Assembly: GCF_006335115.1 (NCBI RefSeq)
Contig: NZ_VDMJ01000035.1
Coordinates: forward strand, 1-62,973
Direction: 5' to 3'
Source: Streptomyces sp. NP160
Lineage (GTDB): Bacteria; Actinomycetota; Actinomycetes; Actinomycetales; Quadrisphaeraceae
DNA: 62,973 bases
The notes beneath the pieces are model-generated. The model searched no databases. It had not been told where the DNA came from and was given only the letters and a program-made list of their open reading frames with translations. Of the stretch, positions 32,965 to 52,952 are shown in pieces. Every line of letters begins with the position of its first letter. The stretch's first letter is position 1. Made by a program: the position numbers and the translations under genes.

Positions 32965-33012
32965 CGACGGGTGGTCCTGCTTCAGCCTGCCGAGCGCACG
33001 TACGCCGTCCGC

Positions 33013-33055
33013 ACCTACGGGTGCCAGATGAACGCGCACGACTCCGAGCGCCTGG
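33013..33055 (+). repeat. attL core (43-bp direct repeat)
   Basis: Identical to 51435-51477. It lies within miaB codons for [14 protein letters not shown], so crossover occurs inside a conserved protein-coding segment that includes an iron-sulfur Cys. The left flank is host miaB and the right flank is phage. Confidence 0.95.
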
Positions 33056-33075
33056 ATCGTGTGTTTTCCTCCTGT

Positions 33076-33090
33076 GGATCGTACCGATCC
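33076..33090. promoter_or_regulatory. Palindrome just inside attL
   Basis: GGATCG-tac-CGATCC is a perfect dyad 21 bp inside the phage from the core, nested in a looser GTGTT/AACAC pair (33061-33065, 33092-33096). In the circular phage it would lie close to int, so it could bind the recombination factor or regulate int. No experiment supports either role here. Confidence 0.4.
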
Positions 33091-33128
33091 TAACACAAGG
33101 TATTGACTGCCGGATTTAGCCGCGTGTG

Positions 33129-33410
33129 TTAGTTATTTGGAATGTGGCATGTGTATTCGTTAGTTAGAGTGAGCCCCCGTCTGGTGACAGTGATCCAACC
33201 TTGAGCCTCTAGGACACTTTTTGCCCTATGAACGGCTAGGTTCTTCACTCCTACTGCATTACCTAGTTCTTCGATGCTGGGTGCATTGTTTCCGGTGATG
33301 TAGAAGCGTCTTGCAAGGGCCACACCTAGCATTCTTTGTGTAGGTGTGAGGTCTGTGTTCTCTAATGCGTGTGTGTAGTGGAAGTATGATTCTTCTCTTG
33401 TGGATAACAT
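33129..33410 (-). CDS. Winged-helix DNA-binding protein, candidate phage repressor
   Basis: The 93-residue protein has a predicted winged helix-turn-helix: TPTQRMLGVALARRF, APSIEELGNAVGVKNLAVHRAKSVLEAQGWI, then wing residues VTRRGLTL. An AAGGAG lies five bases before the ATG at 33410. It is the only leftward gene at the left end and faces the divergent early region. That is where an immunity repressor or Cro-like control protein usually lies. The family is not certain; an excisionase is the main alternative. Confidence 0.75.
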   Translation of the reverse strand: MLSTREESYFHYTHALENTDLTPTQRMLGVALARRFYITGNNAPSIEELGNAVGVKNLAVHRAKSVLEAQGWITVTRRGLTLTNEYTCHIPNN

Positions 33411-33521
33411 AATAACTCCTTAAGTGTGATGTACACATAATAATACTACGGGTATCATTAACATTAGAAGTCCCCCCGGTTCGTGGGAAAGCATAGCCGG
33501 GGAGGATTTCGCAAGTTTGGT

Positions 33522-33529
33522 GCTATACT
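33522..33529 (+). promoter_or_regulatory. Extended -10 promoter just upstream of a terminator
   Basis: TGCTATACT at 33521-33529 is an extended -10 (TGn plus TATACT). Predicted initiation near 33536 is only about three bases before the terminator stem at 33539, so the transcript would be a hairpin of roughly 45 nt. The downstream promoter at 33594-33622 shares the sequence TATACTTAGT. Confidence 0.5.
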
Positions 33530-33538
33530 TAGTACCAG

Positions 33539-33580
33539 CCCCCACGGGTAACTTTTGGGCTAGGGACCGTGGGGGTTTTT
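33539..33580 (+). terminator. Strong intrinsic terminator
   Basis: Stem CCCCCACGG (33539-33547) pairs with CCGTGGGGG (33567-33575), followed by five T residues. The 19-base loop is long. It would stop rightward transcription from the promoter at 33521 and insulate the repressor side from the early promoter. Confidence 0.85.
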
Positions 33581-33593
33581 CATGCCTAATTAG

Positions 33594-33622
33594 TTGACAC
33601 CTAAAATCGGTGCTCGTATACT
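33594..33622 (+). promoter_or_regulatory. Rightward sigma-70-type promoter
   Basis: TTGACA (33594-33599) and TATACT (33617-33622) are separated by 17 bp, a near-perfect consensus that is rare in this GC-rich host. It points into the gene-free structured region and the early genes at 34330. It is the best candidate for the main early promoter. Confidence 0.75.
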
Positions 33623-33688
33623 TAGTGTCATAGCAAGACCACTGTTTCACTGAAATAATGTGACCCTAGCCCAATGGATGACAAACGG

Positions 33689-33812
33689 TGTTGAAGTATT
33701 CCGGCCCCTGAACCGGTCAACAACAGGGTGGGTTCAAGTCCAGACTTGAGTGATGCCAATGTCTCACTCATTTAAGTGGTCTTCTTACCCTTCTTCTAAC
33801 ACGGACTTGAAC
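33689..33812 (+). ncRNA. Possible structured phage RNA
   Basis: Downstream of the consensus promoter, several complementary segments overlap. These are TGTTGA...TCAACA enclosing CCGG-8 nt-CCGG; TCAAGTC-ca-GACTTGA (33733 onward); TGAGTGA...TCACTCA; and a perfect 10-bp pair GTTCAAGTCC (33732-33741) with GGACTTGAAC (33803-33812). The last two compete for the same bases. This resembles a regulatory RNA more than a gene; no known family is recognised and it is not a tRNA. Confidence 0.35.
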
Positions 33813-33990
33813 GTTACTGACAGACAATGACGTACTGATCAGCCAGCCAGTAGTTAGACGGGTCACATCAATAAATCCCATGCACTAACTTGAACAACAT
33901 TAGAAGAATCAACACACCAAAGTGTTGGCACCAGAGTGTAAGCGCGTGTGATAACGAGGCACTTACAGCGGCATTGGTCTACTCAGTTAC

Positions 33991-34054
33991 GAGAGGATAC
34001 TGATACATGGTTTTGATCCCGCGTTTTTCGCGGTTTCTTTCTATGTATCCTCTC
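33991..34054 (+). other. Long hairpin with nested stem
   Basis: Outer arms GAGAGGATAC (33991-34000) and GTATCCTCTC (34045-34054) are perfectly complementary. Inside, CCGCG-TTTTT-CGCGG (34019-34033) forms a second stem followed by a T-rich run. It may terminate or process the long early leader, or be a protein-binding cruciform. Confidence 0.6.
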
Positions 34055-34095
34055 TAGGCACGCTGGGGGGGGATTGAATTATGCCTAAAATCAAA

Positions 34096-34182
34096 TACTC
34101 TCTCTTACTCTCTTAAAACATTACCTCTTACTCTCTCTTAAATTCTCTCTCACTCTCTTCTCACACACACTCTCACTTCATC
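34096..34182 (+). repeat. Pyrimidine-rich CTCT/TACTCTCT tract
   Basis: About 87 bases are almost purely C, T and scattered A on this strand, with repeated units TACTCTCT and CTCTCTTA and no G at all. The strong strand asymmetry and lack of coding potential suggest an easily unwound or protein-bound site, such as a replication origin. This is inference only. Confidence 0.6.
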
Positions 34183-34329
34183 AAATTGGTTGCTTCGCAA
34201 CCCTAGTTGGGGTGTATTGAATAATAGGTTGCAATAGTGGTTGGTGTAAGAATTAATGGACAACTGTGCCTAAATACCTTCCTGGAATAGTCGCTTAGAA
34301 TACTAAGTAGACGGTTATAGGGGGTGTAA

Positions 34330-34656
34330 ATGAGAGTGGAGCCAGCAGTATTAGCAGTACTAGGTACGGTGTTCGGCGGGGTAGGACTTAAAATAATCGA
34401 ACACTGGTTAGGTAAGAAGAAAGCAAAGACAGACCTAGCATCAGAACTAAGGGATGAACTAAGAGAGGACATGAAAGACCTTAGACAGCAGTTGAAAGAG
34501 GAGCGGGAACGTTCGGAACTGTGGGAAGAACGGTATTGGGAACTGAAGACAGGACAGTTGCTCATTAATGAGAAGGTTAGAACAATTGGAGAGGTATCAG
34601 AAGCGGTACACCCCGATGCGGGTCTAAGAGAAAGGTTGCAAGAGTTACCAGACTAA
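34330..34656 (+). CDS. Small membrane protein with coiled coil (holin-like candidate)
   Basis: The 108-residue protein has one N-terminal hydrophobic helix (AVLAVLGTVFGGVGLKIIEHWL) and then a long charged coiled coil (about 35-75, ELRDELREDMKDLRQQLKEE). A GGGGGTG ribosome site precedes ATG 34330. It is the first gene after the control region. The topology would suit a holin or membrane anchor, but no holin family is recognised. Confidence 0.7.
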   Translation: MRVEPAVLAVLGTVFGGVGLKIIEHWLGKKKAKTDLASELRDELREDMKDLRQQLKEERERSELWEERYWELKTGQLLINEKVRTIGEVSEAVHPDAGLRERLQELPD

Positions 34657-34666
34657 GGGAGGCAGC

Positions 34667-34906
34667 ATGTGCGTAGGTCATGGGGGAGGGTCATACACCG
34701 TCCGAGAGTACGTAACTCATGGAGAGTGGATGACGTTCAAGAGTGAAGAGGACTACTTGCTGTGGAGAGAGGTAGAGGACATGAAGCAGAACATGCCACC
34801 AGAGGCCCTAGAAGGCCGCTCAGAGGCTCAACTAAAAAGGTTGGCACCCTCCTTCCCAAAGTTTATTAAACGGTGCCCTGTGTGGCGTACAGCAATACCA
34901 ACGTAA
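34667..34906 (+). CDS. Hypothetical phage protein
   Basis: The 79-residue protein starts at ATG 34667 with a good GGGAGG five bases upstream, 10 bp after the previous stop. It is hydrophilic, with an acidic middle (EEDYLLWREVEDM) and a basic C-terminus (FIKRCPVWRTA). No domain is recognised. Confidence 0.65.
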   Translation: MCVGHGGGSYTVREYVTHGEWMTFKSEEDYLLWREVEDMKQNMPPEALEGRSEAQLKRLAPSFPKFIKRCPVWRTAIPT

Positions 34907-34940
34907 CGAAGGCGGTTGTTTGTGATAGAAGAAGAAAGGG

Positions 34941-34946
34941 TATACA
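34941..34946 (+). promoter_or_regulatory. Possible -10 element (TATACA)
   Basis: TATACACTAAGTCGTAGCAAAG here resembles the initiation region of the early promoter at 33617 (TATACTTAGTGTCATAGCAAG). The -35 is poor (TTGTGA at 15 bp or TTGTTT at 19 bp). A terminator follows about 55 bases later. Confidence 0.3.
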
Positions 34947-35000
34947 CTAAGTCGTAGCAAAGAAAGTATCAGTCATTGCTCCGTATTACACCGCCGATCA

Positions 35001-35029
35001 AGGGCCAGGCTAGCCACCTGGTCCTTTTT
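35001..35029 (+). terminator. Intrinsic terminator
   Basis: AGGGCCAGG (35001-35009) pairs with CCTGGTCCT (35017-35025; one G-T pair) and is followed by TTTTT. It lies between the 79-residue protein gene and the 35-residue zinc-ribbon-like gene, so it may act as an attenuator inside the early operon. Confidence 0.75.
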
Positions 35030-35048
35030 CTATTAGAGAGGATCACAC

Positions 35049-35156
35049 ATGTTGATAGACAGACACATCGAAGAGCACTTCTGCACACAGTGCCAGCGCC
35101 TCACAGACCGGACCCACAATCACGAAACAACATGGACTGGTTTCGTTCGCTGGTAA
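35049..35156 (+). CDS. Very small CxxC protein
   Basis: The 35-residue protein runs MLIDRHIEEHFCTQCQRLTD and then a His-rich end. His8 or His10, Cys12, Cys15 and the later His residues could bind one zinc. A GAGAGG ribosome site precedes ATG 35049. It was chosen over a longer 67-codon frame in another phase, which starts inside the terminator region without a ribosome site. Function unknown. Confidence 0.55.
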   Translation: MLIDRHIEEHFCTQCQRLTDRTHNHETTWTGFVRW

Positions 35157-35248
35157 AAATTATGCTTTTTAACAAGTGATGCTTCATAATGAACTCATCA
35201 AGGGGATGCTTGGCGGTGGACCCTTGAAATTTATTACGGAGCGTTACC

Positions 35249-35791
35249 ATGATAATTTCAATGAACAAGGAAGAACTAGCATTAGCAGCACTCATCGGAA
35301 CCAAGAGAACAGAAGAAAACAAGAACGGGCATCACATCGCAGAGTACAGACAGCAAGCATTCAACCTCTCAACAGAACAGGCCAACAGGCTAGGGGTACT
35401 GGCAGAAATGGCGGTACTTAAATGGTTAGGTGCCCCCTACAATGACAGAGACGTATGGATTGATTTCGTTCCACGCAGTGAGTACAGCAAGTTAAAAGGT
35501 AGACCAGACATACAGTGGCAAGGCATGGACATTGAGGTCCGCCGGGCGAACAAAGAAGTATCGCCCATCCCACTACGTAAGAAGGATCAGGGTTACATCG
35601 TCGTTCAGCCCTTCATCCCCTACGAACAACACTCTGAAACCGGCTTAATCCGCGTCGGCAGAGAAGTTCAATTGTTGGGGTGGGCACGATGGGATGACGA
35701 AACAACAAAACCGTGGTGGTCCAACGGTAGCAGCATGGTGGCCCTTGAGAAAAGACCCATGAATAGTTTCTTTGTTGGGGAGGCAGCATGA
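35249..35791 (+). CDS. PD-(D/E)XK nuclease-like phage protein
   Basis: The 180-residue protein has Glu53 in LAEMAVLKWLG, Asp87 in GRPDIQW and Glu96-Val-Arg98 in MDIEVRRA. They follow the core order of PD-(D/E)XK nucleases (Glu on helix 1, Asp on strand 2, E-x-K on strand 3), but with Arg in place of the catalytic Lys. It could be a recombination or restriction-type nuclease, or a catalytically altered binder. An ACGGAG precedes ATG 35249. The stop overlaps the next gene (ATGA). Confidence 0.65.
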   Translation: MIISMNKEELALAALIGTKRTEENKNGHHIAEYRQQAFNLSTEQANRLGVLAEMAVLKWLGAPYNDRDVWIDFVPRSEYSKLKGRPDIQWQGMDIEVRRANKEVSPIPLRKKDQGYIVVQPFIPYEQHSETGLIRVGREVQLLGWARWDDETTKPWWSNGSSMVALEKRPMNSFFVGEAA

Positions 35792-35877
35792 TTGAAGTAT
35801 TGGTCTTCCTGGCGGTGTTCATGAACCTAGTGTTTGCATGGATGCTCATCAAACAAATCAAACAAGACAGACGATAA
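35788..35877 (+). CDS. Tiny single-helix membrane protein
   Basis: The 29-residue protein (MIEVLVFLAVFMNLVFAWML, then basic KQIKQDRR) has one membrane helix and a positive C-terminus. ATG 35788 overlaps the previous stop and has GGGGAGG upstream. In a genome without a recognisable endolysin it is a lysis-protein candidate, by inference only. Confidence 0.6.
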   Translation: MIEVLVFLAVFMNLVFAWMLIKQIKQDRR

Positions 35878-35950
35878 TTTGCATTAGAAAGTGATAGTGC
35901 CATAATAGAACCATTAAGAGGGAAACCTTTGAACATTAGGAGGAAGCAAC

Positions 35951-36112
35951 GTGGTAGTGATTGGAGCATACGCGCTAGGCATGGTGATTGTCGGTGCGGG
36001 AGCAGTAGTAGGCAGCAAGGCTAAGGAAGCGTACAACAATTACACATGGCGTAAGGACACAGAAGCATTCCACGCTTACTGTGAGACACAGAAGCAGAAG
36101 GCCGCTCTATGA
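35951..36112 (+). CDS. Small membrane protein
   Basis: The 53-residue protein starts at GTG 35951 after a strong AGGAGG. One Gly-rich helix (VVVIGAYALGMVIVGAGAVV) precedes a charged tail with Tyr/Trp residues. The stop overlaps the next gene as ATGA. Function unknown; holin-like or virion-associated roles are possible. Confidence 0.6.
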   Translation: MVVIGAYALGMVIVGAGAVVGSKAKEAYNNYTWRKDTEAFHAYCETQKQKAAL

Positions 36113-36354
36113 GCGGCTTTCCTGGTGCAGCAGACGCTGTACGTCAATACATTGAAAAGAATCAGAAAGTCATACAGGGAGCCGCAGCGCGCAATGAGAA
36201 AGAGCGCAGAGAGTGGCTTAAGCAACAAGAGCAAACTGCTACTATTGACATTAAGAGTTGGCTGTTAGCCATAGAACTCGAACAACTAAGAAAGCAAGAA
36301 TCATTAGAAGCAGCCCTACAGGCTGCAAAGAACCACCGATACAAGAAAGCCTGA
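36109..36354 (+). CDS. Coiled-coil hypothetical protein
   Basis: The 81-residue, mostly helical and highly charged protein (NEKERREWLKQQEQ; LEQLRKQESLEAALQAAK) overlaps the small membrane protein gene by 4 bp. No membrane segment or recognised domain is present. Position just ahead of tail-fibre genes suggests a virion or assembly role. Confidence 0.65.
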   Translation: MSGFPGAADAVRQYIEKNQKVIQGAAARNEKERREWLKQQEQTATIDIKSWLLAIELEQLRKQESLEAALQAAKNHRYKKA

Positions 36355-36389
36355 CAGGCCACGAAGGGGGCCGGGGTTAAGGAAGAGAA

Positions 36390-36719
36390 ATGCCAGCACA
36401 AAGAAAAGACTTAGTACACGACGCAGGGACCAATTTCAACCTTGCAGTTCAATACCTAGACAACCTAGGTAATCCAGTAGACCTCACAACATTTACAGCA
36501 GTGCTCTCAGTTCTGGAAAGAGGAAGCGGACAGGTTCGTCTTACTTCCACCAGAGCGCCGGGCGTTGACGGATGGATCACCTTCAACATTCCACCTACAT
36601 CAAACGTCACATGGCCTCTAGGCAAGAGCGCATACACACTAGAAATCAAGGACGCACTACTCAACACCACTCGCTTGCTCTTCGGTGAATTAAACGTCAG
36701 AAGCGGGTACTCAGTATGA
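36390..36719 (+). CDS. Small tail/fibre-associated beta protein
   Basis: The 109-residue, beta-rich protein (DAGTNFNLAVQYLDNLGNPVD; VDGWITFNIPP; YTLEIKD) resembles the Ig-like N-terminal module of phage baseplate upper proteins. GGAAGAG precedes ATG 36390. It overlaps the fibre gene by 4 bp, so it probably links or chaperones the fibre. Confidence 0.6.
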   Translation: MPAQRKDLVHDAGTNFNLAVQYLDNLGNPVDLTTFTAVLSVLERGSGQVRLTSTRAPGVDGWITFNIPPTSNVTWPLGKSAYTLEIKDALLNTTRLLFGELNVRSGYSV

Positions 36720-39247
36720 GCGACTACACACTAGTATTCCAAGACAACAGACCCATAGTTAACATCACATCAACAGGGCCACAAGGCGTTCAAGGAATCC
36801 CAGGGCCAGCCGGTCCGGCGGGAACAAAGGGCGAAAGCGCTCTCTCATACAACGTCACATCAACAAACACCGTAGGCAATGGATCAGGGGTAGTCAGAAC
36901 ACTCTTCGTAGGTCCAAGCGCTTACTCAGTGGGTGACTATGTACGTCTAACATCAACAGCAGCGTCAAACCGCTACATGACAGGAACAGTCACTGACAAC
37001 GATGGAACAGCACTATCCATCGACATTGACTATGCAACAGGTGGAGCCTCAAGCACCTACAGCCTCAGCCCTACCGGCCGTCAAGGGCTCAAGGGTGATC
37101 CCGGTGACAGTGTTGGCCTACCCGGACCAAAGGGTGACCAGGGGGAGCCAGGACCAGTTGGTCCACAAGGCCCTACAGGCAACACAGGAGCCACTGGACC
37201 CAAGGGAGACACCGGAGACACTGGACCACAGGGTCTGACAGGTGAGCGCGGCCTACAGGGGCTTCCAGGCACACCAGGCGAGCAGGGGCCAGCAGGCGCT
37301 AAGGGAGACACAGGCGCTACAGGTGCTCAGGGACCGAAAGGTGACACAGGCTCACAAGGGCCAAAGGGTGACCAGGGCATCAAGGGGGACACCGGAACAG
37401 CCGGTGCCAAGGGTGACACAGGTGATACCGGTCCAGCAGGGCCAGGCGTAGCAGCCGGGGGGACGACAAATCAGTTCCTCATCAAGTCATCCTCAACAAA
37501 CTATGCGACAACATGGTCAAGCAAACTCAATGCCGTTTACACAGGTACAGCATCAGGTGACCACACCATCGCTGCAATACAGAACGCCACAGCCGGGGAC
37601 AACATCAGTGCCCTTAATGTGTCATCAATCAACGAACAGTTCTCATCCATGCAAGTCACCGGTAGAGAAATCGACACAGGAACCATCAAGGTCAGTCACG
37701 TCAAGCCAGCATCAGGTACCAGTGACGCTAATGCAGCAGCATTGAGCATCGACCTCAAGGGAACAGGCACAGCAGCACAAGGAATTGTCATCGATGCCAC
37801 AGAAGGCGGTACTACAGGTGACTTACTCAAACTGAGAAACAACGGTGCCTTCCTCGTAACCGTCAAGTCTGATGGAAAAATGGGTATTGGTACAGGGCTC
37901 AACACACCGGGTGGAAAGTTAGAAGTACGTCAAACAGACGACTCATTGCCAGGTGTCGTGATTCAAGCCAACAGCACAACAAGTGCTGACCTGTTGCAGT
38001 TCAAGAACAACTCAGGAGCATTGAGAACAAACATCAACCGCACAGGTGACCTAGTTGTTCGTGGACAGGCTTACCTACAGAACCTCCAAGTAGTCGGTAC
38101 CTCAACTGACTTTGGAGGCGGTAACGGTGTCATTGGTCTTAAGAATGCCAACACAGTGCCTACAACAAATCCAACCGGGGGAGTGATCGTCTACTCCGAT
38201 GCCGGTGTACTGAAATACCGTCAACCTGACGGAACAGTCATCGATGTAGGTTCTAACACAGCCGCTGCGCTCAATTACAACGCCACATCATCATCGAGCG
38301 TGACTATCGGTACAGGCTCAAAAACGTTCACCGTAGCATCCGGTTTGGCTTTTGCTGCGGGAAACTACGTAAGAGTGCAATCAACAGCCAATGCCACTAC
38401 CTACATGGCAGGAAACGTTACGTCCTACTCAGGTACATCGTTGGTCATCAACGTTGTTGAGACAAGTGGAACAGGAACGCTAGGTAGTTGGACCATCGGC
38501 CTCACCGGGGCCAAGGGTGCTGCCGGGTCAACGGGCAGTGCTGGAACAGTACTCACATCAACATCGTCAACATCGAATGCCATTGGTACAGGATCAAAGA
38601 CATTCACCACTGCTGCCGCAATGACAGGAGCAACGGTAGGTCAATGGGTTCTCATTACTAACACGGGAACACCTGCCAACTTCATGAGAGGGCAAGTAAC
38701 CGCTCTGTCAGGTACCTCGATCACCATCAACGTGACTGAGGCTGGTGGTTCGGGCACCTTCACAGCATGGACTCTCTCAGTCACAGGTATGACGGGTGCT
38801 CAAGGTGTCCAAGGACCGGCGGGTACAGGAAGTGATTACGCAAACACCTTTGTAGACGTCAATAGAGTAACGACAACTGCTTTCCCCAACAATGGGTTTG
38901 CTGTGCTACCTCTCAACAATGAGGTATCAGACGTTGGCAACAACTATGACGCGACAACGTACCTCTACACAGTGCCAACTTCGGGACTGTACATGTGCCT
39001 TGGTGACTTCCGCCTCAGGGATGACGAAGGAACTACAGGGGCGTCTGTAGGCATCGGCATCCACACTGCCGCAGAGGATGGACCTCACTTCAAATGGACA
39101 ATCATCCCTGCCAGCCAACGTCGTTACATCGACTACAGACGCATGGCGCGCTTCAACGCGGGGGATCAATTGAGGCTGTTCGTCTACTACGGGGATGCTG
39201 CTTGCACATTAGAGAGAGCAAGTATGCAAATCGTGAGACTGTCATGA
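36716..39247 (+). CDS. Collagen-like tail fibre
   Basis: The 843-residue protein has Gly-X-Y triplets at about 20-40, a long run at 121-243 and short runs near 594-612 and 692-706. A beta-rich module of about 80 residues (motifs such as VGDYVRLTST, ITINVTE) occurs three times, at about 41-120, 517-600 and 613-690, each time leading into collagen-like sequence. Residues 250-510 form another beta-rich region (GKLEVRQTDDS). The C-terminal ~130 residues look like a C1q/TNF-type knob (TVPTSGLYMCLGDFRL) for receptor binding. Confidence 0.85.
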   Translation: MSDYTLVFQDNRPIVNITSTGPQGVQGIPGPAGPAGTKGESALSYNVTSTNTVGNGSGVVRTLFVGPSAYSVGDYVRLTSTAASNRYMTGTVTDNDGTALSIDIDYATGGASSTYSLSPTGRQGLKGDPGDSVGLPGPKGDQGEPGPVGPQGPTGNTGATGPKGDTGDTGPQGLTGERGLQGLPGTPGEQGPAGAKGDTGATGAQGPKGDTGSQGPKGDQGIKGDTGTAGAKGDTGDTGPAGPGVAAGGTTNQFLIKSSSTNYATTWSSKLNAVYTGTASGDHTIAAIQNATAGDNISALNVSSINEQFSSMQVTGREIDTGTIKVSHVKPASGTSDANAAALSIDLKGTGTAAQGIVIDATEGGTTGDLLKLRNNGAFLVTVKSDGKMGIGTGLNTPGGKLEVRQTDDSLPGVVIQANSTTSADLLQFKNNSGALRTNINRTGDLVVRGQAYLQNLQVVGTSTDFGGGNGVIGLKNANTVPTTNPTGGVIVYSDAGVLKYRQPDGTVIDVGSNTAAALNYNATSSSSVTIGTGSKTFTVASGLAFAAGNYVRVQSTANATTYMAGNVTSYSGTSLVINVVETSGTGTLGSWTIGLTGAKGAAGSTGSAGTVLTSTSSTSNAIGTGSKTFTTAAAMTGATVGQWVLITNTGTPANFMRGQVTALSGTSITINVTEAGGSGTFTAWTLSVTGMTGAQGVQGPAGTGSDYANTFVDVNRVTTTAFPNNGFAVLPLNNEVSDVGNNYDATTYLYTVPTSGLYMCLGDFRLRDDEGTTGASVGIGIHTAAEDGPHFKWTIIPASQRRYIDYRRMARFNAGDQLRLFVYYGDAACTLERASMQIVRLS

Positions 39248-39336
39248 GACTGGCGGGGGTACGTATAGCAATACACCTACTACGTCTAATACAGAAAGCA
39301 CTGGGGGGTACCTCTAGAAAGAGGGGTGCCCCATGA
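39244..39336 (+). CDS. Very small basic protein between fibre and HNH genes
   Basis: The 30-residue frame has an amphipathic basic helix (VRIAIHLLRLIQKAL) and a Lys/Arg end. Its ATG overlaps the fibre stop and its stop overlaps the HNH ATG, the tight ATGA pattern of translated phage genes. It may simply couple translation. Confidence 0.45.
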   Translation: MRLAGVRIAIHLLRLIQKALGGTSRKRGAP

Positions 39337-39605
39337 GCAACCAAAGCAGGCGGGGTAAAGAGTGGGTAGCCCTAGCACAGTCCATTAAGGATAGGGATGG
39401 TAATACATGTCAATACAACTTCGGTGGTTGCACATACGACAAAGACCTAACAGTCGATCACATCACAGCACTAGACAATGGCGGTACTGATGATGAGTGG
39501 AACCTCATCACCGCTTGTCGTACATGTAATGGCCGTAAGAGTAATCATGTATTGATACGTAAGAACTGGTATGACACAAAGTGGTTCCCAAACGGCATAC
39601 ACTGA
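39333..39605 (+). CDS. HNH endonuclease
   Basis: The 90-residue HNH nuclease has Cys pairs in TCQYNFGGC and ACRTCNG (zinc), the catalytic His in LTVDHITALDNGG and Asn in DEWNLITACRTCN. Free-standing HNH proteins next to terminase genes stimulate DNA packaging and cos cleavage in HK97-type phages. Here it precedes the 81-bp repeats and the terminase genes, a natural place for a packaging nuclease. Confidence 0.9.
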   Translation: MSNQSRRGKEWVALAQSIKDRDGNTCQYNFGGCTYDKDLTVDHITALDNGGTDDEWNLITACRTCNGRKSNHVLIRKNWYDTKWFPNGIH

Positions 39606-39616
39606 CCAGAAGTAAT

Positions 39617-39788
39617 CCCGCCTCAACTCTCAAACTAATTTCGATCACATCGCAACATTCGGATCGAAAGTCATTCCTTTGAGAAAGACCTGCACACCCC
39701 GCCTCAACTCTCAAACTAATTTCGATCACATCGCAACATTCGGATCGAAAGTCATTCCTTTGAGAAAGACCTGCACACCCCGCCTCAA
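39617..39788 (+). repeat. Tandem 81-bp dyad repeats upstream of terminase
   Basis: Two copies that appear identical by eye (39617-39697, 39698-39778) and the first 10 bases of a third (39779-39788). Each copy contains nested inverted repeats: TCTCAAA/TTTGAGA outside and TTTCGATC/GATCGAAA inside. The position between the HNH and terminase genes suggests a packaging (cos/pac) recognition site. No gene spans it. Confidence 0.85.
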
Positions 39789-39843
39789 TGACCCTTTTAG
39801 GGTTACAATAAATACAAACATTTGAAAGGATTTTGATGGAAAA

Positions 39844-41546: not shown

Positions 41547-41570
41547 CATAAAGAATAGTTATGTTACATT
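41543..41570 (+). promoter_or_regulatory. Promoter for leaderless portal mRNA
   Basis: TTGACA (41543-41548) overlaps the terminase stop. After 16 bp comes TACATT (41565-41570), and seven bases later the ATG of the portal (41578). There is no Shine-Dalgarno sequence, unlike nearly all other phage genes here, so transcription probably starts at the ATG. Confidence 0.5.
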
Positions 41571-44682: not shown

Positions 44683-44683
44683 C

Positions 44684-45477: not shown

Positions 45478-45478
45478 C

Positions 45479-45850: not shown

Positions 45851-45874
45851 CTAAGACTCTGGGAGGGGTTAAGC

Positions 45875-46165
45875 ATGAACAAAATGGAGAAGTTTTCTAA
45901 GTCACTCAAACTATCCGAGTGGAACGCAATTGAAAGAAAGACTGGTATCGGCATGTCCGAGGTAGGACAGGCGGGTAGCCCAGAAGCGGAGTTCACAGCC
46001 GCATTGGTATGGATTGGTCAAAAGCGTCTAGGCAAGACCTACTCATTCGATGACGCATGTGACCTGACTCTTGATGAAGCCGGTGCTCTTCTAACTGAAA
46101 CGTTAGACGCATTGAACTACACCGACGACACAGAGGACGCAGACCCAAAAGCGAGCAAGCAGTAG
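45875..46165 (+). CDS. Tail assembly chaperone, short form (G)
   Basis: The 96-residue helical, acidic protein (SLKLSEWNAIERKTGIGMSE; SFDDACDLTLDEAGALL) lies immediately before the tape measure, where gpG-like chaperones are found. It ends at TAG 46163. A slippery site near its end produces the longer GT form. Confidence 0.8.
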   Translation: MNKMEKFSKSLKLSEWNAIERKTGIGMSEVGQAGSPEAEFTAALVWIGQKRLGKTYSFDDACDLTLDEAGALLTETLDALNYTDDTEDADPKASKQ

Positions 46166-46299
46166 AAGAGCAGTACATCAGAGAACGGTGGAAGTTCTGT
46201 TTCGCAACAGGACGACCACTAGAGGAATACGACAACTTGACCGTACTGGAACACAACATAGGAGTGCAGGTATGGAAAGAAATGAACAAGAAAAAGTAA
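45875..46299 (+). CDS. Tail assembly chaperone, -1 frameshift product (GT)
   Basis: The canonical heptamer C_CCA_AAA at 46144-46150 allows a -1 slip at codon 92. Reading continues for 49 codons (from SEQAVEEQYIRERWKF to VWKEMNKKK) to TAA 46297-46299, giving 141 residues. The T part has no start of its own. The conserved siphovirus strategy and position just ahead of the tape measure support it. Coordinates span both frames. Confidence 0.85.
46144..46150 (+). promoter_or_regulatory. Programmed -1 frameshift site
   Basis: CCCAAAA in zero frame as C_CCA_AAA fits X_XXY_YYZ exactly and lies five codons before the zero-frame stop. Slipping places ribosomes in the frame that ends 16 bp before the tape measure start. 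Confidence 0.85.
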
Positions 46300-46314
46300 G
46301 GGAGGCAAGGTTGG

Positions 46315-48177
46315 TTGGCAAATACAATTTCAGTGAACGTTGTAGCAGACGTTCAGAACATAAGACGTGGCATTGATGATGTAAACACTCAACTGAGTGG
46401 TTTCTCTACTGCTGCAAGCAAAGTAGGAGACACACTCAAGGGCGCTCTTGCCGGTGGTATCGCATTAGCAGCCGGTGGGGGAGTAGCAACATTCTTCAAG
46501 GATGCTGTAACAGGTGCATCAGACCTTAATGAGACAGTCGCTAAGACACAACAAATCCTAGGCACTGATGGTGCTAATGCTGTTATGCAGTTCGCTGAGA
46601 CAGCAGCCACATCACTAGGTCAAAGCAAGCAACAAGCCCTTGATGCCTCAGCCACCTTCGCTACTTTCGGTAAGGCAGCAGGACTGGCCGGGACAGACCT
46701 AGCAGCATTCGCTACACAGAACACTCAGTTAGCAACCGACCTTGCTTCCTTCAACAACACCACACCAGAACAAGCCATTGAGGCTCTAGGTGCTGCTTTC
46801 CGTGGTGAGGCGGAGCCTATGCGTCAGTACGGTGTCCTCCTTGATGACGCCACATTAAGACAAGAAGCAATGGCCCTAGGTCTGATCAGGACCACTAAGG
46901 AAGCATTAACACCACAGCAGAAGGTGCTAGCGGCTCAGTCAGCCATCCTCAAGCAGACCAGTGACGCTCAGGGAGACTTTGAGCGCACCAGTGGGGGACT
47001 AGCCAACCAACAGAGAATCCTCGCTGCTGAGTGGGAGAACACCAAGACAGCACTAGGCCAGGGCTTGCTACCGGCCTTGACGGGGTTCGTGTCGTTCCTC
47101 AACAGCAGCGGCCTACCGGCTATCAAGTCGTTCGGTTCGTTCCTGGCTGACAACAAGACTCCGATCCTGGCGTTCGGCGCAGCCGTGGGAGCACTGACTC
47201 TCATCATGGCCGCACACAGCGCTGTAATGGCCGTACAGGCTGCCGGAGGCATGTTGGCGTGGCTGAGGGCCACCACCCTCGCTAGAACCGCTGTAGCGGC
47301 CTACACAGCCGTCCAGTGGCTCTTGAACGCTGCTATGGCTGCCAACCCCATTGGTCTGGTGGTTGTGGCAATCGCGGCGCTAGTTGCAGCGTTCGTTCTG
47401 GCGTACAGAAACAGTGAGACTTTCCGTAACATCGTCAACGGTGTATGGAACTGGTTGAAGAGCGCTACATCAGCAACCTTCAATGCTGTAAAGAACTTCA
47501 TCGTTTCTGCATGGACTTCCATCGTCTCAGTCACTATGAGTGTCTTTAATTCGATCAAGTCGTTCATCGCTAGCGCTATCGTCAACGTTCTCACAACTGT
47601 GGCGAGAGTCATCGAAATCAAGAACCGCTTCCAAGACGCCTTCCAGCAGGCAAATGCAATCATCGTCAGCAAAATCGCACAAATCATCGGTGTTGTCCGT
47701 GAAATCCCAGGAAGAATCGTCTCAGCAATGGGTGACCTAGGTGGACGCTTGCGTTCAGCCGGTGGTCAATTGATCCAAGGATTCATCGGAGGTATCCAAG
47801 ACAAAGTAGGTGCAGCCGTATCAGCAGTGAAGAACGCTGTAGGAAACGTTGTCTCAGGTGCTAAGTCTGCTCTTGGTATTCGTTCACCTTCCAGAGTCTT
47901 TAAGACCATCGGTAAGTACACCGTTCAAGGTCTAGAGCAAGGGCTCAATCAGGTTGGTGGATTGAGAAAGGCTGCCGCCAACATGGCTAATGTTGTCAGT
48001 GGTGGCTTTGAGCCTAAGTTGTCATTGTCTGGTGCAGGCTTTGATGGGTCAGGCTCTATGCGTGGGGGTAACACCTACAACCTCTCATTTGAGGGAGTTG
48101 TCGCCGGTGACCCTATGGAGTACGCCCGCTTCACCAGAGGCGCATTAGAAGAGTTTGAGAGAGCAAACGGTCGATGA
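46315..48177 (+). CDS. Tape measure protein
   Basis: The 620-residue protein sets tail length. The N-terminus (VNVVADVQNIRRGIDDVNTQL) and Gly/Ala-rich helices (GALAGGIALAAGGGVATFF) begin it. Two hydrophobic segments lie at about 280-365 (LTLIMAAHSAVMAVQAAGG and GLVVVAIAALVAAFVL). The C-terminal SPSRVFKTIGKYTVQGLEQG is typical. TTG 46315 is nine bases after GGGAGG. The short length predicts a short tail. Stop overlaps the next ATG. Confidence 0.92.
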   Translation: MANTISVNVVADVQNIRRGIDDVNTQLSGFSTAASKVGDTLKGALAGGIALAAGGGVATFFKDAVTGASDLNETVAKTQQILGTDGANAVMQFAETAATSLGQSKQQALDASATFATFGKAAGLAGTDLAAFATQNTQLATDLASFNNTTPEQAIEALGAAFRGEAEPMRQYGVLLDDATLRQEAMALGLIRTTKEALTPQQKVLAAQSAILKQTSDAQGDFERTSGGLANQQRILAAEWENTKTALGQGLLPALTGFVSFLNSSGLPAIKSFGSFLADNKTPILAFGAAVGALTLIMAAHSAVMAVQAAGGMLAWLRATTLARTAVAAYTAVQWLLNAAMAANPIGLVVVAIAALVAAFVLAYRNSETFRNIVNGVWNWLKSATSATFNAVKNFIVSAWTSIVSVTMSVFNSIKSFIASAIVNVLTTVARVIEIKNRFQDAFQQANAIIVSKIAQIIGVVREIPGRIVSAMGDLGGRLRSAGGQLIQGFIGGIQDKVGAAVSAVKNAVGNVVSGAKSALGIRSPSRVFKTIGKYTVQGLEQGLNQVGGLRKAAANMANVVSGGFEPKLSLSGAGFDGSGSMRGGNTYNLSFEGVVAGDPMEYARFTRGALEEFERANGR

Positions 48178-49358
48178 TTACAACAAACCAACTGAAAATC
48201 CAGGTGTCCCTAGTCGATACCGCCTACTTCGTTCTAGGTGAGTCTCGACTAGGACAGGGAAGACTTGGTAATTATGAGTCAGGTACTAACAAGTATTTCG
48301 TCCTAGGTCAGTCACGCCTTAATCAAGGCATCCTGTCGCCTAGTGGTGGCTATGACGCCAACAGCCAATGGGTAGACCTAGCAAGTGATGCCACAAGCCT
48401 TAATGCACACAGAGGCGCAAAGCGTGGTAATCAGCCGGGTGAAGAGTTAGAAGTAGGAACAATGGCGGTATCACTTATTGGTCCTAACTATGACCCCGCT
48501 ATCAACAACTACATTCACCGTGGAGTACCTATCAGAGTGCTCTTGCAAAACAGTGTGGTCTTCGTGGGCAACATTTGGACTGCTCAGTCGTCATACGATT
48601 GGAGCGGTAGACCAAGAGTAACCATTAATGCTGTGGACGTAGTGAACAAGTTGAGCCAAACCCGTAAGAGTAACTTGTTACAACAAGGTTTTGGTCCACG
48701 AGTCGATGACTTGCTTGCTTCTCTAGGTATTCAATACGCCGTGACAGGAAGCGCAAAGCAATTAGGAGACTACGCCAAAGAGGACAGCGTTCTTAATCAC
48801 TTACAGCGAGCATTGAACACTGACGGTGGCTACATGTTCGTCAACCGTGCCGGTAATTTACAGGTACGCGGGGGCAACTTTGATACGACAAAGACATTGC
48901 CAGTGTCCCTTGACCTCACAGACGGATCATTCTTAATGCCGTTAGAAGTGGGGTATGACTCTCAAGCCCTCTTCAACAGCATCATTTTCAAGAACACCAT
49001 TGGGTCCACAGAAACAACCATTGGTCCGTACCAGAACGGAGCAAGCATCGGACGTAATGGATTAGCAGAAGCAGACGTGGAGACAAACTTCCGTTTCACT
49101 GCTGATGCACAAGCGGCGGCACAAGCAATGGCTGATAAGTACGCTATCGCCTTACCAGAGGTTAAGTCGGTAAGCATTGACTGCACGAAGCAACTGAGCA
49201 AAGCACTGATCGACCTGTATCAAGTTATCAGGATCAGTTACTACAACCAGTCATTCTCTCTTGTTGGTGAGTACCAAATCATCAGCATCGACCACAAGGT
49301 CACACCTCAGAAGTGGAGAACAACACTCCAACTCATACCTTACATAAGGGGAAACTAA
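48174..49358 (+). CDS. Minor tail/tail-tip protein
   Basis: The 394-residue protein follows the tape measure. Its middle part (RGVPIRVLLQNSVVFVGNIW; RPRVTINAVDVVNKLSQ) resembles distal tail proteins with a hub-like fold, and it ends EWIS-free in a beta strand region (YQIISIDHKVTPQKWRTTL) like baseplate hub proteins. An N-terminal repeat appears twice: YFVLGESRLGQG and YFVLGQSRLNQG. It is probably the tail tip adaptor. Confidence 0.75.
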   Translation: MITTNQLKIQVSLVDTAYFVLGESRLGQGRLGNYESGTNKYFVLGQSRLNQGILSPSGGYDANSQWVDLASDATSLNAHRGAKRGNQPGEELEVGTMAVSLIGPNYDPAINNYIHRGVPIRVLLQNSVVFVGNIWTAQSSYDWSGRPRVTINAVDVVNKLSQTRKSNLLQQGFGPRVDDLLASLGIQYAVTGSAKQLGDYAKEDSVLNHLQRALNTDGGYMFVNRAGNLQVRGGNFDTTKTLPVSLDLTDGSFLMPLEVGYDSQALFNSIIFKNTIGSTETTIGPYQNGASIGRNGLAEADVETNFRFTADAQAAAQAMADKYAIALPEVKSVSIDCTKQLSKALIDLYQVIRISYYNQSFSLVGEYQIISIDHKVTPQKWRTTLQLIPYIRGN

Positions 49359-49370
49359 GGAGAAACAACT

Positions 49371-49973
49371 ATGGCAATAATTAGAAAGACCTTCGCTGAC
49401 AACTCAATCCTGACAGCCAGTGACGTGAACACCTACCTTATGAATCAGGCAGTTGTTGTGTTCACCTCTTCTGAGTCAGAACTCAATTCACTACCCGCTG
49501 AAACCAAGGTAGCGTGGTACAACGGCAACCTGTATGGCCGTAACTCGGCAGGAAACTGGGCAGTCATTGGATTTGATCCTTTTGATGCCAACGTTCCACG
49601 AGGAGGAGTTTCAGCCGGTGCTTCCAATGGTCTAGCACCCGGTACCTACACCGTAGGTAACTTCTCATCCTCTGGACTCAATGGTGGCTTGTCTGCGACC
49701 TCAGACAGAATCACTGTCCCTGTTGCTGGTATTTACACCGTCCAGGGTCTGTGCACCATGCAGTCAGGATCAGCACACACATCGTTCGTCAGCATTGCAG
49801 GATCAGCATTCCTTGACGGCACACAGCAAGCATCACCTGCCGGTGGAACTGTTCGTAACTTGGTGACTGGTTCTCTTGCGCTTGCAGCAGGTGCCTACTT
49901 GCAAATGGTTGTGAACAACAATGCGACTCACAACTTCGTCAGCGCCAGCATGACAGTTCGCCGCATTGCATAA
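49371..49973 (+). CDS. Tail-tip fibre or receptor-binding protein
   Basis: The 200-residue protein has an N-terminal tail-binding part (FADNSILTASDVNTYLMNQAVV) and a C-terminal C1q-like beta domain (ITVPVAGIYTVQGLC). The same fold type ends the collagen-like fibre. GGAGAAACAACT precedes ATG 49371. It is the last structural gene. Confidence 0.75.
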   Translation: MAIIRKTFADNSILTASDVNTYLMNQAVVVFTSSESELNSLPAETKVAWYNGNLYGRNSAGNWAVIGFDPFDANVPRGGVSAGASNGLAPGTYTVGNFSSSGLNGGLSATSDRITVPVAGIYTVQGLCTMQSGSAHTSFVSIAGSAFLDGTQQASPAGGTVRNLVTGSLALAAGAYLQMVVNNNATHNFVSASMTVRRIA

Positions 49974-50013
49974 AGACTTGACGCATTAAGCGTTGAGGAA
50001 GAGAGGTGCCTTT

Positions 50014-50079
50014 GTGATTGCATGGTTTGTTCTATGCTTTTTAACGGGTGTCCTCATCGGTTGGTCCTACACAGACTAA
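50014..50079 (+). CDS. Tiny membrane peptide
   Basis: The 21-residue frame (VIAWFVLCFLTGVLIGWSYT) is a single hydrophobic helix with GTG start and a purine-rich ribosome site (GAGGAAGAGAGG). It lies at the end of the late operon, just before the terminator. It is a possible lysis or membrane peptide; the small size keeps confidence low. Confidence 0.4.
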   Translation: MIAWFVLCFLTGVLIGWSYTD

Positions 50080-50106
50080 CCTTGCTACACCCCTCCTAAT
50101 AAACAG

Positions 50107-50137
50107 CAAGCCCCCTAGCGTTTTGCTAGGGGGCTTG
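50107..50137. terminator. Bidirectional intrinsic terminator
   Basis: CAAGCCCCCTAGC (50107-50119) and GCTAGGGGGCTTG (50125-50137) form a perfect 13-bp stem with a GTTTT loop. It separates the rightward late operon from the convergent lsr2 gene and can serve both. Confidence 0.92.
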
Positions 50138-50148
50138 TCTGTACTAAG

Positions 50149-50520
50149 TCAGTGGGCAGCGTCGTAAGCGTCCACGATTTCGGCCTTGATGCGCCCACGG
50201 TCACCCACGGTGTAGCCGTTGGCGTTGGCCCACTCCCTGATGGAGTTCAGACGCTCCTTGTCGGCGCTAGGACGGCCCGTGGTGCGACGGGGACCAGACA
50301 CAGAGCGCGGGGGAGCGGGAGCGTCCTCAACCTCCGTAGCGACGTTCACGAAGCGCTTGAGGGCATCCTCCAACTTCCCGTAGTTCTCAGTGGTGAGGTC
50401 CACGGTGTAGCGCTTCTGGTTGTTGGACGGGCCGTAGGAGAAGTGCCACGTAAGAACGGGGTTCTCCTCGGTGCCCTCTTCGTTGGTCAGGTCATCAGTG
50501 AGAACGATGCGACGAGCCAT
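50149..50520 (-). CDS. lsr2: Lsr2 family nucleoid protein, phage-encoded
   Basis: The 123-residue protein has an N-terminal dimerisation domain (MARRIVLTDDLTNEEGTEEN; YTVDLTTENYGKLEDAL) and a C-terminal AT-hook-like DNA-binding domain (IREWANANGYTVGDRGRI). Lsr2 silences AT-rich foreign DNA in actinobacteria, as H-NS does in enterobacteria. AAGGAG is nine bases before ATG 50520. The frame continues upstream without stop to ATG 50613, adding 31 residues with Cys-rich CRYFPCTCPCH. Both forms may be made. It is downstream of int on the same strand. Confidence 0.92.
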   Translation of the reverse strand: MARRIVLTDDLTNEEGTEENPVLTWHFSYGPSNNQKRYTVDLTTENYGKLEDALKRFVNVATEVEDAPAPPRSVSGPRRTTGRPSADKERLNSIREWANANGYTVGDRGRIKAEIVDAYDAAH

Positions 50521-50616
50521 AACAGGATGCTCCTTATGACAGGGACAGGTACAGGGAAAGTATCGGCACGAACGGTGTGACTCTTCAATACACCATCCTG
50601 ACTTGCCGCTCATACA

Positions 50617-51378
50617 CTAACGCTCAAACAAGTCTTTGACAACATCGTCAATGTCATTCTTGGAGACTTGTGCGTAGAAGTTAAGGGTGGTCTTCAAGTC
50701 ACTGTGCCTCATTTGCCTTCTAGCAATTTCAGGGTTGATGCGCCGGTTCACCATCATAGTTGCATACCAATGCCTCAACATGTGCGGGGAGAGGTGGATA
50801 CCTGTCTTCACACCATACCGCCTGAAAGACTCTCTAATTTGACCACTCGTGACAGTGCGCTCTTCCATCACTTTAATACGGTCTGCTAGCCAATTAGGAA
50901 TGATGACTTCACCGGTTGTCTTTGCTTGAGTAAGAGTGCCATTGTCATACCGCTGTGCGGACACCTTGAGCACATTACCCTTCACGTCTTTACGAGTGAT
51001 AGCACATGCCTCACCACTTCTTAACCCTGCATACATCATCATCAATCCATACAGTTCATAAGGGCACAGAGCAAGAGTGAAACGTAGTGTCTCTTCTGAG
51101 GGAAGGTCATAGACTCTAGCCGTAGCCTTTGGAATGCGAAACTGCTTAATCCAGTCAATGTCAGAGAACAATGACCTTAGAGCAATGATGTGCTTCCTTC
51201 TAGAATTAGGATTGGTCACAGACAGCAGAGTTCGGTGTAGTAACTGTGGTGTGAAATCATTCATGGACACGTCTTCAAGCCCTAGGTACTTGATAGTCTC
51301 TAGGTAGGACTCAACGGTTGACTGCCGCAGTAGCCGCGAATTGAGAACGGCTGTGGCATAAGAGAGAACGGTGTCCAC
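50617..51378 (-). CDS. int: Tyrosine recombinase (integrase)
   Basis: The 253-residue protein has catalytic residues Arg120 (YAGLRSGEA), His199-X-X-Arg202 ([11 protein letters not shown]), His225 (MRHSDLKTT) and Tyr235 (LNFYAQV). The N-terminal SAM-like core-binding domain is about 1-80; an arm-binding domain is minimal or absent. GTG 51378 follows GGAGGAATC and is preferred to an upstream start lying in the att region. It lies 24 bp from the miaB GTG, divergently. It catalyses recombination at the 43-bp core. Confidence 0.95.
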
Positions 51379-51389
51379 GATTCCTCCGG

Positions 51390-51395
51390 TATGCT
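51390..51395 (+). promoter_or_regulatory. Phage-supplied -10 element for miaB
   Basis: TATGCT lies six bases before GTG 51402, the same spacing as the host TATCCT-N6-GTG at 32959-32973, and again there is no Shine-Dalgarno. No clear -35 is seen, which is common for actinobacterial promoters. This would drive leaderless miaB mRNA in the lysogen. Confidence 0.5.
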
Positions 51396-51401
51396 GTGCG
51401 G

Positions 51402-52952
51402 GTGGAGGAAAACCCACGCACCTATAGCGTGAAGACCTACGGGTGCCAGATGAACGCGCACGACTCCGAGCGCCTGGCCGGGCTGCTCGAGGACGCCGGG
51501 TACTCCCGCGCCGACGACGAGGCGGGGCGCTCGGGCGAGGCCGACGTCGTCGTCCTCAACACCTGCGCGGTGCGGGAGAACGCCGACAACCGGCTCTACG
51601 GCAACCTCGGGCACCTCGCCAGCGTCAAGGCGCGCCGGCCCGGCATGCAGATCGCCGTCGGCGGGTGCCTGGCCCAGAAGGACCGCGACGTGATCCTGGC
51701 GAAGGCGCCGTGGGTGGACGTCGTCTTCGGCACCCACAACACCCACGCCCTGCCCGCGCTGCTGGAGCGCTCCCGCGTGCAGGCGGAGGCGCAGGTGGAG
51801 GTGCTGGAGGAGCTGGAGGTCTTCCCCTCCACGCTGCCGCAGGCCCGTGAGTCCGCCGCCAGCGCGTGGGTGTCCATCAGCGTGGGGTGCAACAACACCT
51901 GCACGTTCTGCATCGTGCCGGCGCTGCGCGGCAAGGAGAAGGACCGCCGCCCCGGCGACGTGCTCGCCGAGGTGGAGGCGCTGGTGGCCGACGGCGTGGT
52001 CGAGGTGACGCTGCTCGGGCAGAACGTCAACTCCTACGGCACCGGCCTCGGCGGCTTCGGCGAGGGGCTCGAGCGGGGGCGCGGCAACAGCGCGTTCGCC
52101 GACCTGCTCCGGGCGGTCGGCCGGGTCGACGGCATCGAGCGGGTGCGCTTCACCAGCCCCCACCCGGCGATGTTCACCGACGACGTCATCACCGCCATGG
52201 CCGAGACGCCGACCGTGATGCCCCAGCTGCACATGCCGCTGCAGTCCGGGTCGGACCGGGTGCTGCGCGCGATGCGCCGCTCCTACCGGTCGGAGAGGTT
52301 CCTCGGGATCCTTGATCGCGTGCGGGCGCAGATCCCCGACGCGGCCATCAGCACCGACGTCATCGTCGGCTTCCCCGGGGAGACCGAGGAGGACTTCGCC
52401 GAGACGCTGCGGGTGGTCGAGGCGAGCCGCTTCGCCAGCGCGTTCACGTTCCAGTACTCCCAGCGGCCCGGCACGCCGGCCGCCACGATGCCCGACCAGC
52501 TGCCCAAGGCCGTGGTGCAGGAGCGCTACGAGCGGCTCATCGCCCTCCAGGAGCGGATCTCGGAGTCCGAGGCGGCGCTCCAGGTGGGCCGTGAGGTCGA
52601 GGTGCTCGTCGCCGAGGCGAAGGGCAAGAAGGACGGCGCCAGCCAGCGCGTCTCGGGCCGCGCCCGGGACAACCGGCTCGTGCACGTGGGCCTGCCCGAC
52701 GGGCTCGCCGAGGCGGACCGGCCCCGTCCCGGTGACGCGGTGACCGTCCGGGTCACGCAGTCGGCGCCGCACCACCTCGTCGCCGACGTGCCGGCGGGGA
52801 CGCCGCTGGCCGTGAGGCGCACGCGCGGCGGTGACGCGTACGACCGCCGCCAGCTCGCCTCCTGCGGCGTGCCCGCCCAGGGCAGCGGCGCCAGCACCGG
52901 TGGCCGCACGGTGGGGCTGGGCCTGCCCACCCTCCGCGTTCCCGTCGCCTGA
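51402..52952 (+). CDS. miaB: tRNA methylthiotransferase MiaB with phage-derived 5' end
   Basis: The 516-residue radical-SAM enzyme adds methylthio to i6A37 of tRNAs. Cluster 1 ligands are Cys15, Cys55 and Cys89 (YGCQMN, NTCAVRE, GGCLAQK). The radical-SAM cluster is Cys163, Cys167 and Cys170. A C-terminal TRAM domain follows. Codons before 51435 are phage DNA ([11 protein letters not shown]) replacing host VVLLQPAERTYAVR. The frame remains open across attR, so the enzyme is restored with a chimeric N-terminus. An upstream GTG at 51396 is an alternative start. Confidence 0.93.
51435..51477 (+). repeat. attR core (43-bp direct repeat)
   Basis: Identical to attL at 33013-33055. Phage DNA lies to the left and host miaB to the right. 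Protein-level similarity to the host N-terminus continues upstream of the DNA identity (RTYSVK versus RTYAVR), so the phage carries a diverged miaB start, not only the core. Confidence 0.95.

Follow-up and report, generated by a model that had tools for sequence, protein, structure and literature searches.

A prophage inserted in the 5' coding end of miaB was analyzed in Streptomyces sp. NP160 (contig NZ_VDMJ01000035.1, positions 1 to 62,973 of the forward strand; this whole stretch of 62,973 nucleotides is referred to as the window). Comparison with at least 17 further phage-side miaB 5' ends, from viral records and from named genomes of Nocardioides, Nocardia, Rhodococcus, Antrihabitans and Streptomyces, makes it very probable that phages or satellites integrating in miaB restore the gene start with a phage-borne cassette of the leaderless type. 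The element would be a temperate actinobacteriophage or phage satellite, with a tyrosine integrase that uses the conserved TYGCQMN coding stretch of miaB as its bacterial attachment site (attB). Integration would sever the host promoter, the start codon and the first codons from miaB, and the flank of the phage attachment site (attP) would bring a gene-start cassette in return: a TANNNT -10 hexamer, a start codon 5-10 nt further on and codons for R-[TS]-Y-x-V. Some bases of this cassette seem to double as an integrase site. Since native miaB appears leaderless, a few dozen bases would suffice for a working gene start.

The insertion itself is confirmed. A 43-bp core, which is a miaB stretch encoding 14 residues, occurs exactly twice in the window and on the same strand (Table 1). 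From core to core the prophage unit measures 18,422 bp, and its guanine plus cytosine (GC) content is 0.498, against 0.752 and 0.767 in the flanks. The exact duplication, the low-GC insert and the adjoining tyrosine integrase together exclude chance. To the left of attL lie host codons 1-14 (GTG at 32971, MVLLQPAERTYAVR), and the truncated frame runs past attL into phage DNA, where it soon stops. Joining both host flanks by script gave a single unbroken miaB frame, so that the empty site is coherent. A preliminary description of this DNA had placed the core within miaB with host codons 1-14 split off on the left, and both exact core copies and the truncated frame were indeed found.

Table 1 Features of the miaB prophage and its junctions in the window
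Feature	Position	Strand	Remarks
Host miaB -10-like hexamer TATCCT	32959..32964	+	6 nt ahead of GTG 32971, native leaderless-type layout by sequence; TATCCT-N6-GTG in 5/5 same-genus relatives
Truncated host miaB 5' end running into prophage	32971..33093	+	40 residues, then stop (stop end 33093)
Prophage	33013..51434	.	Packaging, head and tail genes by PHROGs
attL, 43-bp core copy	33013..33055	+	Exact duplicate
Int-binding-like site GAGGAAAACACACG	33058..33071	-	11/14 to GATGAACCCACACG, shuffle 95% value 9; inverted relative to site at 51405; putative binding
Tyrosine integrase	50617..51378	-	Pfam PF00589, E 1.7e-13; likely GTG start 51378, CGGAGG at 51383-51388; 5' to 5' with rebuilt miaB
Phage-supplied -10-like hexamer TATGCT	51390..51395	+	6 nt ahead of GTG 51402
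Phage-supplied start and first 11 miaB codons (GTG + 10 residues)	51402..51434	+	
Int-binding-like site GAGGAAAACCCACG within phage-supplied coding sequence	51405..51418	+	10/14, shuffle 95% value 9; putative binding
attR, 43-bp core copy	51435..51477	+	Exact duplicate
Rebuilt miaB, 516 aa from GTG 51402	51402..52952	+	Nearest solved relatives MiaB 7mjz/7mjv

Right of the attR core miaB is open to 52952 and carries the Pfam domains UPF0004 and Radical_SAM. The phage flank offers two in-frame GTG codons, at 51396 and 51402; the first sits directly after TATGCT, so that the second is the likelier start. A GTG and N-terminus supplied in frame by the phage had been proposed before; the frame holds, with one V fewer than was counted. 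The supplied residues would form a beta strand, and the alignment to MiaB 7mjz begins at residue 8. Omega values of the window miaB against five same-genus relatives were 0.10-0.14, and those among these relatives 0.09-0.16. The rebuilt MiaB was used as query against 58 relatives and matched in 57; among the matches listed, no second miaB fragment like that of the window at 32992 was seen outside the window genome.

Used as a single query, the window integrase gave no confirmed relative in genome contigs or viral contigs. A search with the miaB core in viral contigs yielded a related small phage (L067/L069; L numbers denote loci) with the core and a divergent int (32% identical), in which MQRSFEII precedes TYGCQMN. 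The window integrase aligned with those of L069 and Mulchroom opened up the integrase family. These alignments gave at least 21 viral loci, and then at least 13 loci in named records (9 of them relevant, L114-L122) plus at least 35 viral loci, some of them repeated. In 396 genomes of the order only weak matches were found besides the window's own integrase (best 5.4e-9, 33% identity). The integrase of L113 matched 204 of 50,697 phage records, all below 60% identity and the best being Mulchroom with 34.2%, so that this collection holds no close relative of it.

The scans of relatives were pattern-based, and the 18 phage-side miaB 5' ends are therefore a lower bound (at least 18) rather than a census; they were picked by integrase and core searches, are related to each other and occur in hosts of several families. 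Seven come from viral records (L069, L108, its near-copy L109, L110, L112, L113 and L132) and three from Nocardioides (L114, L115, L117). The others are from the window, Nocardia amikacinitolerans (L173), Antrihabitans (L172), Rhodococcus sp. 1168 (L163), Streptomyces turgidiscabies (L168), Streptomyces prunicolor (L175) and the IMG/VR records L171 and L070, which, judged by their record numbers, presumably come from isolates. In the seven viral records a stop codon closes the frame at most about 20 codons past the core, which marks them as attP-like and not as host junctions. In the 11 ends of type A (see below) the integrase match begins at most about 110 nt from the core or miaB match, so that the sequence in between is phage. 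L065, L071 and L072 were rejected as members of this type, since miaB lies at the contig edge there with phage genes on its 3' side. Mulchroom was dropped as a miaB phage because it has no exact match to the core pattern, and none beside its int. Sequence resembling miaB was also found in L066, L068 and L073-L075. The beginning of MiaB matched 14 phage records; the highest identity, 74%, was to unannotated contigs of human-fecal origin (H15-H20), which may be further cases or bacterial DNA. In a tree of 27 integrases that of the window groups with those of the Streptomyces miaB phages (92/84, not starred), and the rest fall in another part of the tree, with a long-branch warning that concerns L069 above all. 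A second integrase in L107 (17485-18234), on the same viral record as an integrase of the miaB type, groups with Mulchroom in this tree.

Both prophage ends are visible in six genomes, namely those of the window, Nocardia, Antrihabitans, Rhodococcus 1168 (ends on different contigs), S. prunicolor and N. flavescens, and in all six the miaB frame is rebuilt. Their identity blocks measure 43, 42, 58, 60, 46 and 43 bp, respectively. Just upstream of the block host and phage ends are alike at 24, 17, 18, 11, 18 and 17 of 60 positions in the same order, compared without gaps. All six blocks overlap at the T-[YFH]-G-C-Q-M codons; the cysteine encoded there is the first of the conserved motif and has a role in the cluster. 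The block of N. flavescens takes in the ATG, so that in this genome the replacement is confined to the promoter region. Judged from its cores, which lie about 2.5 kb apart, and its partial integrase match, the element of Antrihabitans (L161/L172) has shrunk, yet it keeps the rebuilt miaB start.

In all 18 phage ends the frame is open and has an in-frame start codon, and ahead of the core they encode R (18/18), T or S (18/18), Y (17, with F in one), a variable residue and V (17, with I in one). The view that the phage bears its own diverged miaB beginning is borne out by these ends; it had been said to fail if attP of phage relatives lacked a miaB-like N-terminus, and all seven attP-like viral records have one. 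The residues are kept by different codons. In the 18 ends the R at codon -8 is written with CGC, CGT, CGA, AGA and AGG, thus from both codon boxes, the T/S at -7 with five codons and the V/I at -4 with four. Differences were counted by codon position in seven distinct segments, those of the window and of six viral records, with L109 left out as a near-copy of L108. For the R, T/S, Y and V codons 12, 6 and 52 differences fell on positions 1, 2 and 3 (84 codon comparisons); for all six codons, including two variable ones, the numbers were 38, 36 and 84 (126 comparisons). Phage and host origin are indistinguishable in lysogens whose identity block reaches these codons, and the seven segments used are free of that. 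Judged from these substitutions, the phage-supplied miaB codons are under coding selection.

The miaB gene was read as having a leaderless start on the basis of figures for Mycobacterium tuberculosis. In the part of that work used here, TANNNT was reported upstream of 73% of primary starts with no conserved -35 element, and 22% of expressed genes were leaderless, defined by a transcript start at most 5 bp from the start codon and a TANNNT centred 7-12 bp upstream (Cortes et al., PMC3898074). A -35 element was accordingly not required here. Both the motif and leaderless-type spacing are present in the host and phage starts of the window, where the host TATCCT-N6-GTG is replaced by the phage TATGCT-N6-GTG. 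The host form precedes miaB in all five same-genus relatives. Of 29 native relatives of the order (L005-L033, from the 57 with a MiaB match), all but L030 carry TANNNT 5-10 nt ahead of an in-frame start (28/29), in a scan that allowed 4-11 nt and was run without shuffle control. The host or native 5' ends of lysogen-bearing genomes, including Rhodococcus wratislaviensis with its intact miaB, all show this layout (7/7, with 0.44 expected from shuffles). At the same distance it was found in 14 of the 18 phage ends, while dinucleotide shuffles gave an expectation of 2.23. Host and phage spacing agree in the window (6 and 6) and in N. flavescens (9 and 9). Native miaB looks leaderless by these patterns; TATGCT would drive leaderless transcription in the lysogen, and MiaB would be made and active there.

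Several observations weigh against this interpretation. TANNNT is absent at that distance in 4 of the 18 phage ends (L110, L113, L069 and S. prunicolor); the replacement promoter of the preliminary description is putative, supported in the window by a motif that copies the host layout. The match in L112 is weak (shuffle rate 0.435), and those of S. turgidiscabies and L132 depend on start codons that lie 32 and 18 codons upstream, respectively. In the Nocardiaceae the spacing differs, being 5 in the phage and 6 in the host (7 in R. wratislaviensis). The tail probability as printed, 5e-11, should not be read as corrected, because related ends were taken as independent, several starts were allowed per end and the motif window was set after the first cases. 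For L114, L115 and S. turgidiscabies the search yielded one core copy per genome, so that their host end is unseen. The omega values of the window fit a working miaB but have little force if the insertion is recent, and a sixth relative from another genus (L010) gave 0.29-0.38 against all partners.

Upstream of the core, a 14-mer like GATGAACCCACACG was found in all 18 ends (10-14 of 14 matching; shuffle 95% value 9); the reference was taken from L108 and is thus not an independent motif. Downstream, the inverted 14-mer scored above the shuffle value in 10 of the 13 ends examined; Nocardia equalled that value, and L132 and S. prunicolor fell short of it. The distance from the end of the left site to the GGN codon is 22, 33-34, 43 or 55 nt, in steps of about one helical turn. 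The left site lies within the supplied coding sequence in the window, in five Nocardiaceae-type ends and in both Streptomyces ends, so that the same bases may serve the integrase and MiaB. The integrase would bind at these 14-mer sites.

The ends fall into two architectures. In type A (11 ends: window, L069, L108, L109, L112, L114, L115, L117, L132 and both Streptomyces) int points away from the rebuilt start. In type B (7 ends: L110, L113, Nocardia, Rhodococcus 1168 and Antrihabitans, with L070 and L135/L171 assigned by gene order) int is on the other arm and co-directional with miaB; at the junctions that are visible, it starts a few tens of bases past the stop codon of the truncated miaB frame. 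Neither type forms one clade in the tree of 27 integrases (4 and 2 label changes). Between core and int of L113 and L118 (type B) an inverted repeat was noticed by eye, ahead of or around the ribosome-binding site of int, which it could control. For five type A ends the 1600 nt following the core were examined, and in each of them the opposite strand carries the longest open reading frame (ORF; 159 aa in L069, 317 in L108, 272 in L112, 346 in L132 and 120 in the window), while the longest on the same strand measures 82, 112, 85, 185 and 96 aa, respectively. By this layout miaB is the one evident gene that the promoter-like site could serve, L132 being the least clear case. Within the 1600 nt of the window the sole same-strand ORF of at least 50 aa starts about 1.3 kb away, and the site faces away from int; it looks like a dedicated site and not like one belonging to a phage operon. 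That integration puts miaB under phage transcription was for the same reasons too strong a statement.

A wider idea is offered tentatively, with more doubt than confidence: the leaderless start may be a portable part of actinophages, holding promoter, start, N-terminus and integrase site in 25-60 bp and used by one integrase family at perhaps two or more target genes, and type B integration may swap the promoters of int and miaB. In the type B circle a miaB-like start would stand just ahead of int. In the lysogen int would come to lie behind the truncated miaB start and the host promoter, and miaB would run from the phage promoter. If true, int expression in type B lysogens would follow the host control of a tRNA-modification gene. 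As to a second target, related int genes in L104 (18868-19323) and L119 (R. wratislaviensis, 9946-9488) face away from the 5' end of another gene, one end being visible in each, with starts TAGGCT-N7-GTG and TATGCT-N7-GTG. This gene, which we take to be gamma-glutamylcyclotransferase-like, may be subject to 5'-end replacement as well.

Integration might instead act as a switch, with miaB silenced or strongly lowered in the lysogen and back on upon excision. SpyCI, an element in the 5' end of mutL, keeps this gene from being transcribed and is excised as the cells grow, according to the part of the report used here (PMC3430984). In the window, moreover, the starts of int and the rebuilt miaB are 24 bp apart and back to back, facing away from each other, so that interference is possible. 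A -10/start layout and an in-frame N-terminus are supplied all the same, and omega resembles that of relatives that lack this prophage. A switch is judged unlikely; it is partly compatible with the rebuilding of the miaB start, and the two estimates are not exclusive. Slightly less likely still is that the phage-borne miaB start is a fossil, acquired from an earlier host by recombination and kept only as a DNA site for the integrase, without selection to code. In its favour, the core is host-like DNA, and the N-terminal codons share bases with the Int-binding-like site in three groups of ends: that of the window, the five of Nocardiaceae type and the two of Streptomyces. However, the DNA upstream of the core has diverged while the protein pattern was kept: among the R, T/S, Y and V codons, third positions account for 52 of 70 differences. 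The arginine from both codon boxes and the open frame with a start codon in every end also argue against it. That an open frame easily offers a GTG or ATG, so that the repair is only apparent, is a very improbable reading, although two or more in-frame ATG or GTG codons occur in 12 of the 18 phage ends: it is already contradicted by R[TS][YF]x[VI] in 18/18 and by the excess of TANNNT over expectation. An assembly chimera, conceivable in a genome of 186 contigs, is the least credible of all and is already contradicted by junctions of this type in separate viral records and in five further genomes that show both ends.

If the rebuilding of the miaB start holds, many comparable phages show a temperate element hitting highly conserved codons of an enzyme without ending the gene, which a leaderless start may make cheap. 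The attP codons are under coding selection though they head only a short ORF in the phage, so that selection acting in the lysogen stage is directly readable from phage sequence. The putative exchange of int and miaB promoters in type B lysogens is directly testable. A miaB gene of a Streptomyces reportedly 'influences' morphogenesis and moenomycin biosynthesis, as a title in a reference list has it; with such a tie to development and antibiotic formation, a changed promoter might show visible effects. The title also suggests, without showing, that the gene is dispensable and its loss possible in a Streptomyces, and the earlier assertion that integration is only tolerable with repair was in this respect overstated. 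Repair of the start may be why such lysogens are tolerated.

Among the 10 prophage ORFs scanned, terminase, portal, head, connector, tail and Lsr2-like families were recognized, together with a weak match to a replication-initiation family (E 3e-4); no separate lysis gene was found among these 10, which are part of the prophage ORFs. The Lsr2-like gene adjoins int. A predicted protein of 843 aa (36716-39247) contains collagen-like Gly-x-y stretches and is perhaps a tail fibre. The prophage resembles the MulchRoom-type phage satellites in being small, with head genes of its own, low GC, a related integrase (35%) and an Lsr2-like gene near int; such satellites are recognized by helper dependence and the lack of key replication genes of their own, as given in the part of the source used here (PMC10690885). 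Mulchroom differs from it in the missing core match noted above.

The principle that a phage repairs the 5' end it has entered is already known from dusA islands, phage JC1 and SpyCI, which are compared here as far as the parts of the sources used go. Islands in dusA replace the 5' end of this gene by their own sequence, with putative -10/-35 sites before and after integration and a substitute beta strand (Farrugia et al. 2015, PMC4482086). Like the dusA integrases, prophages and islands, the window prophage targets the 5' end of a tRNA-modification gene and replaces it by element sequence (PMC4482086): attB lies within the 5' coding end (43 bp from host codon 15 onward), and a start codon and N-terminal residues are supplied in frame by the element in 18/18 ends. 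The likeness is one of mechanism. The window integrase is a tyrosine recombinase with a Phage_integrase domain. The window prophage differs from the dusA elements in its target, and in that their promoters are described as -10/-35 and not as leaderless; a MiaB-like target, rimO, is mentioned for Polaromonas in the same source (PMC4482086). Burkholderia phage JC1 likewise enters the 5' end of a methylthiotransferase gene, rimO being a relative of MiaB, and its ATG 15 bp ahead of attP keeps the rimO frame while 6 of the first 10 residues are altered. Unlike the window prophage, JC1 has a predicted serine recombinase and an 18-bp overlap and is one phage, described in a section without promoter analysis (PMC9144972). 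SpyCI shares the 5' end of a host gene as its site, and in one SpyCI strain a promoter within int restores expression; it normally gives a mutator phenotype, and that rescue came from a cryptic promoter after decay of the element (PMC3430984). In tRNA-dependent lysogeny, too, the phage supplies what integration destroys, but there a separate and complete tRNA gene complements the loss and no functional gene is rebuilt at the junction (PMC10865867). In the open-access literature searched, with most subscription journals outside its scope and some queries strict, a prophage in the 5' end of miaB was not named, nor were the leaderless layout, the overlap with integrase-like sites or the promoter-swap architecture found. 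These features, together with the choice of miaB as the site, thus appear to be new. Rebuilding of the miaB start is supported by these comparisons as a trait of a family, and it would extend a known but little-studied habit of phages.

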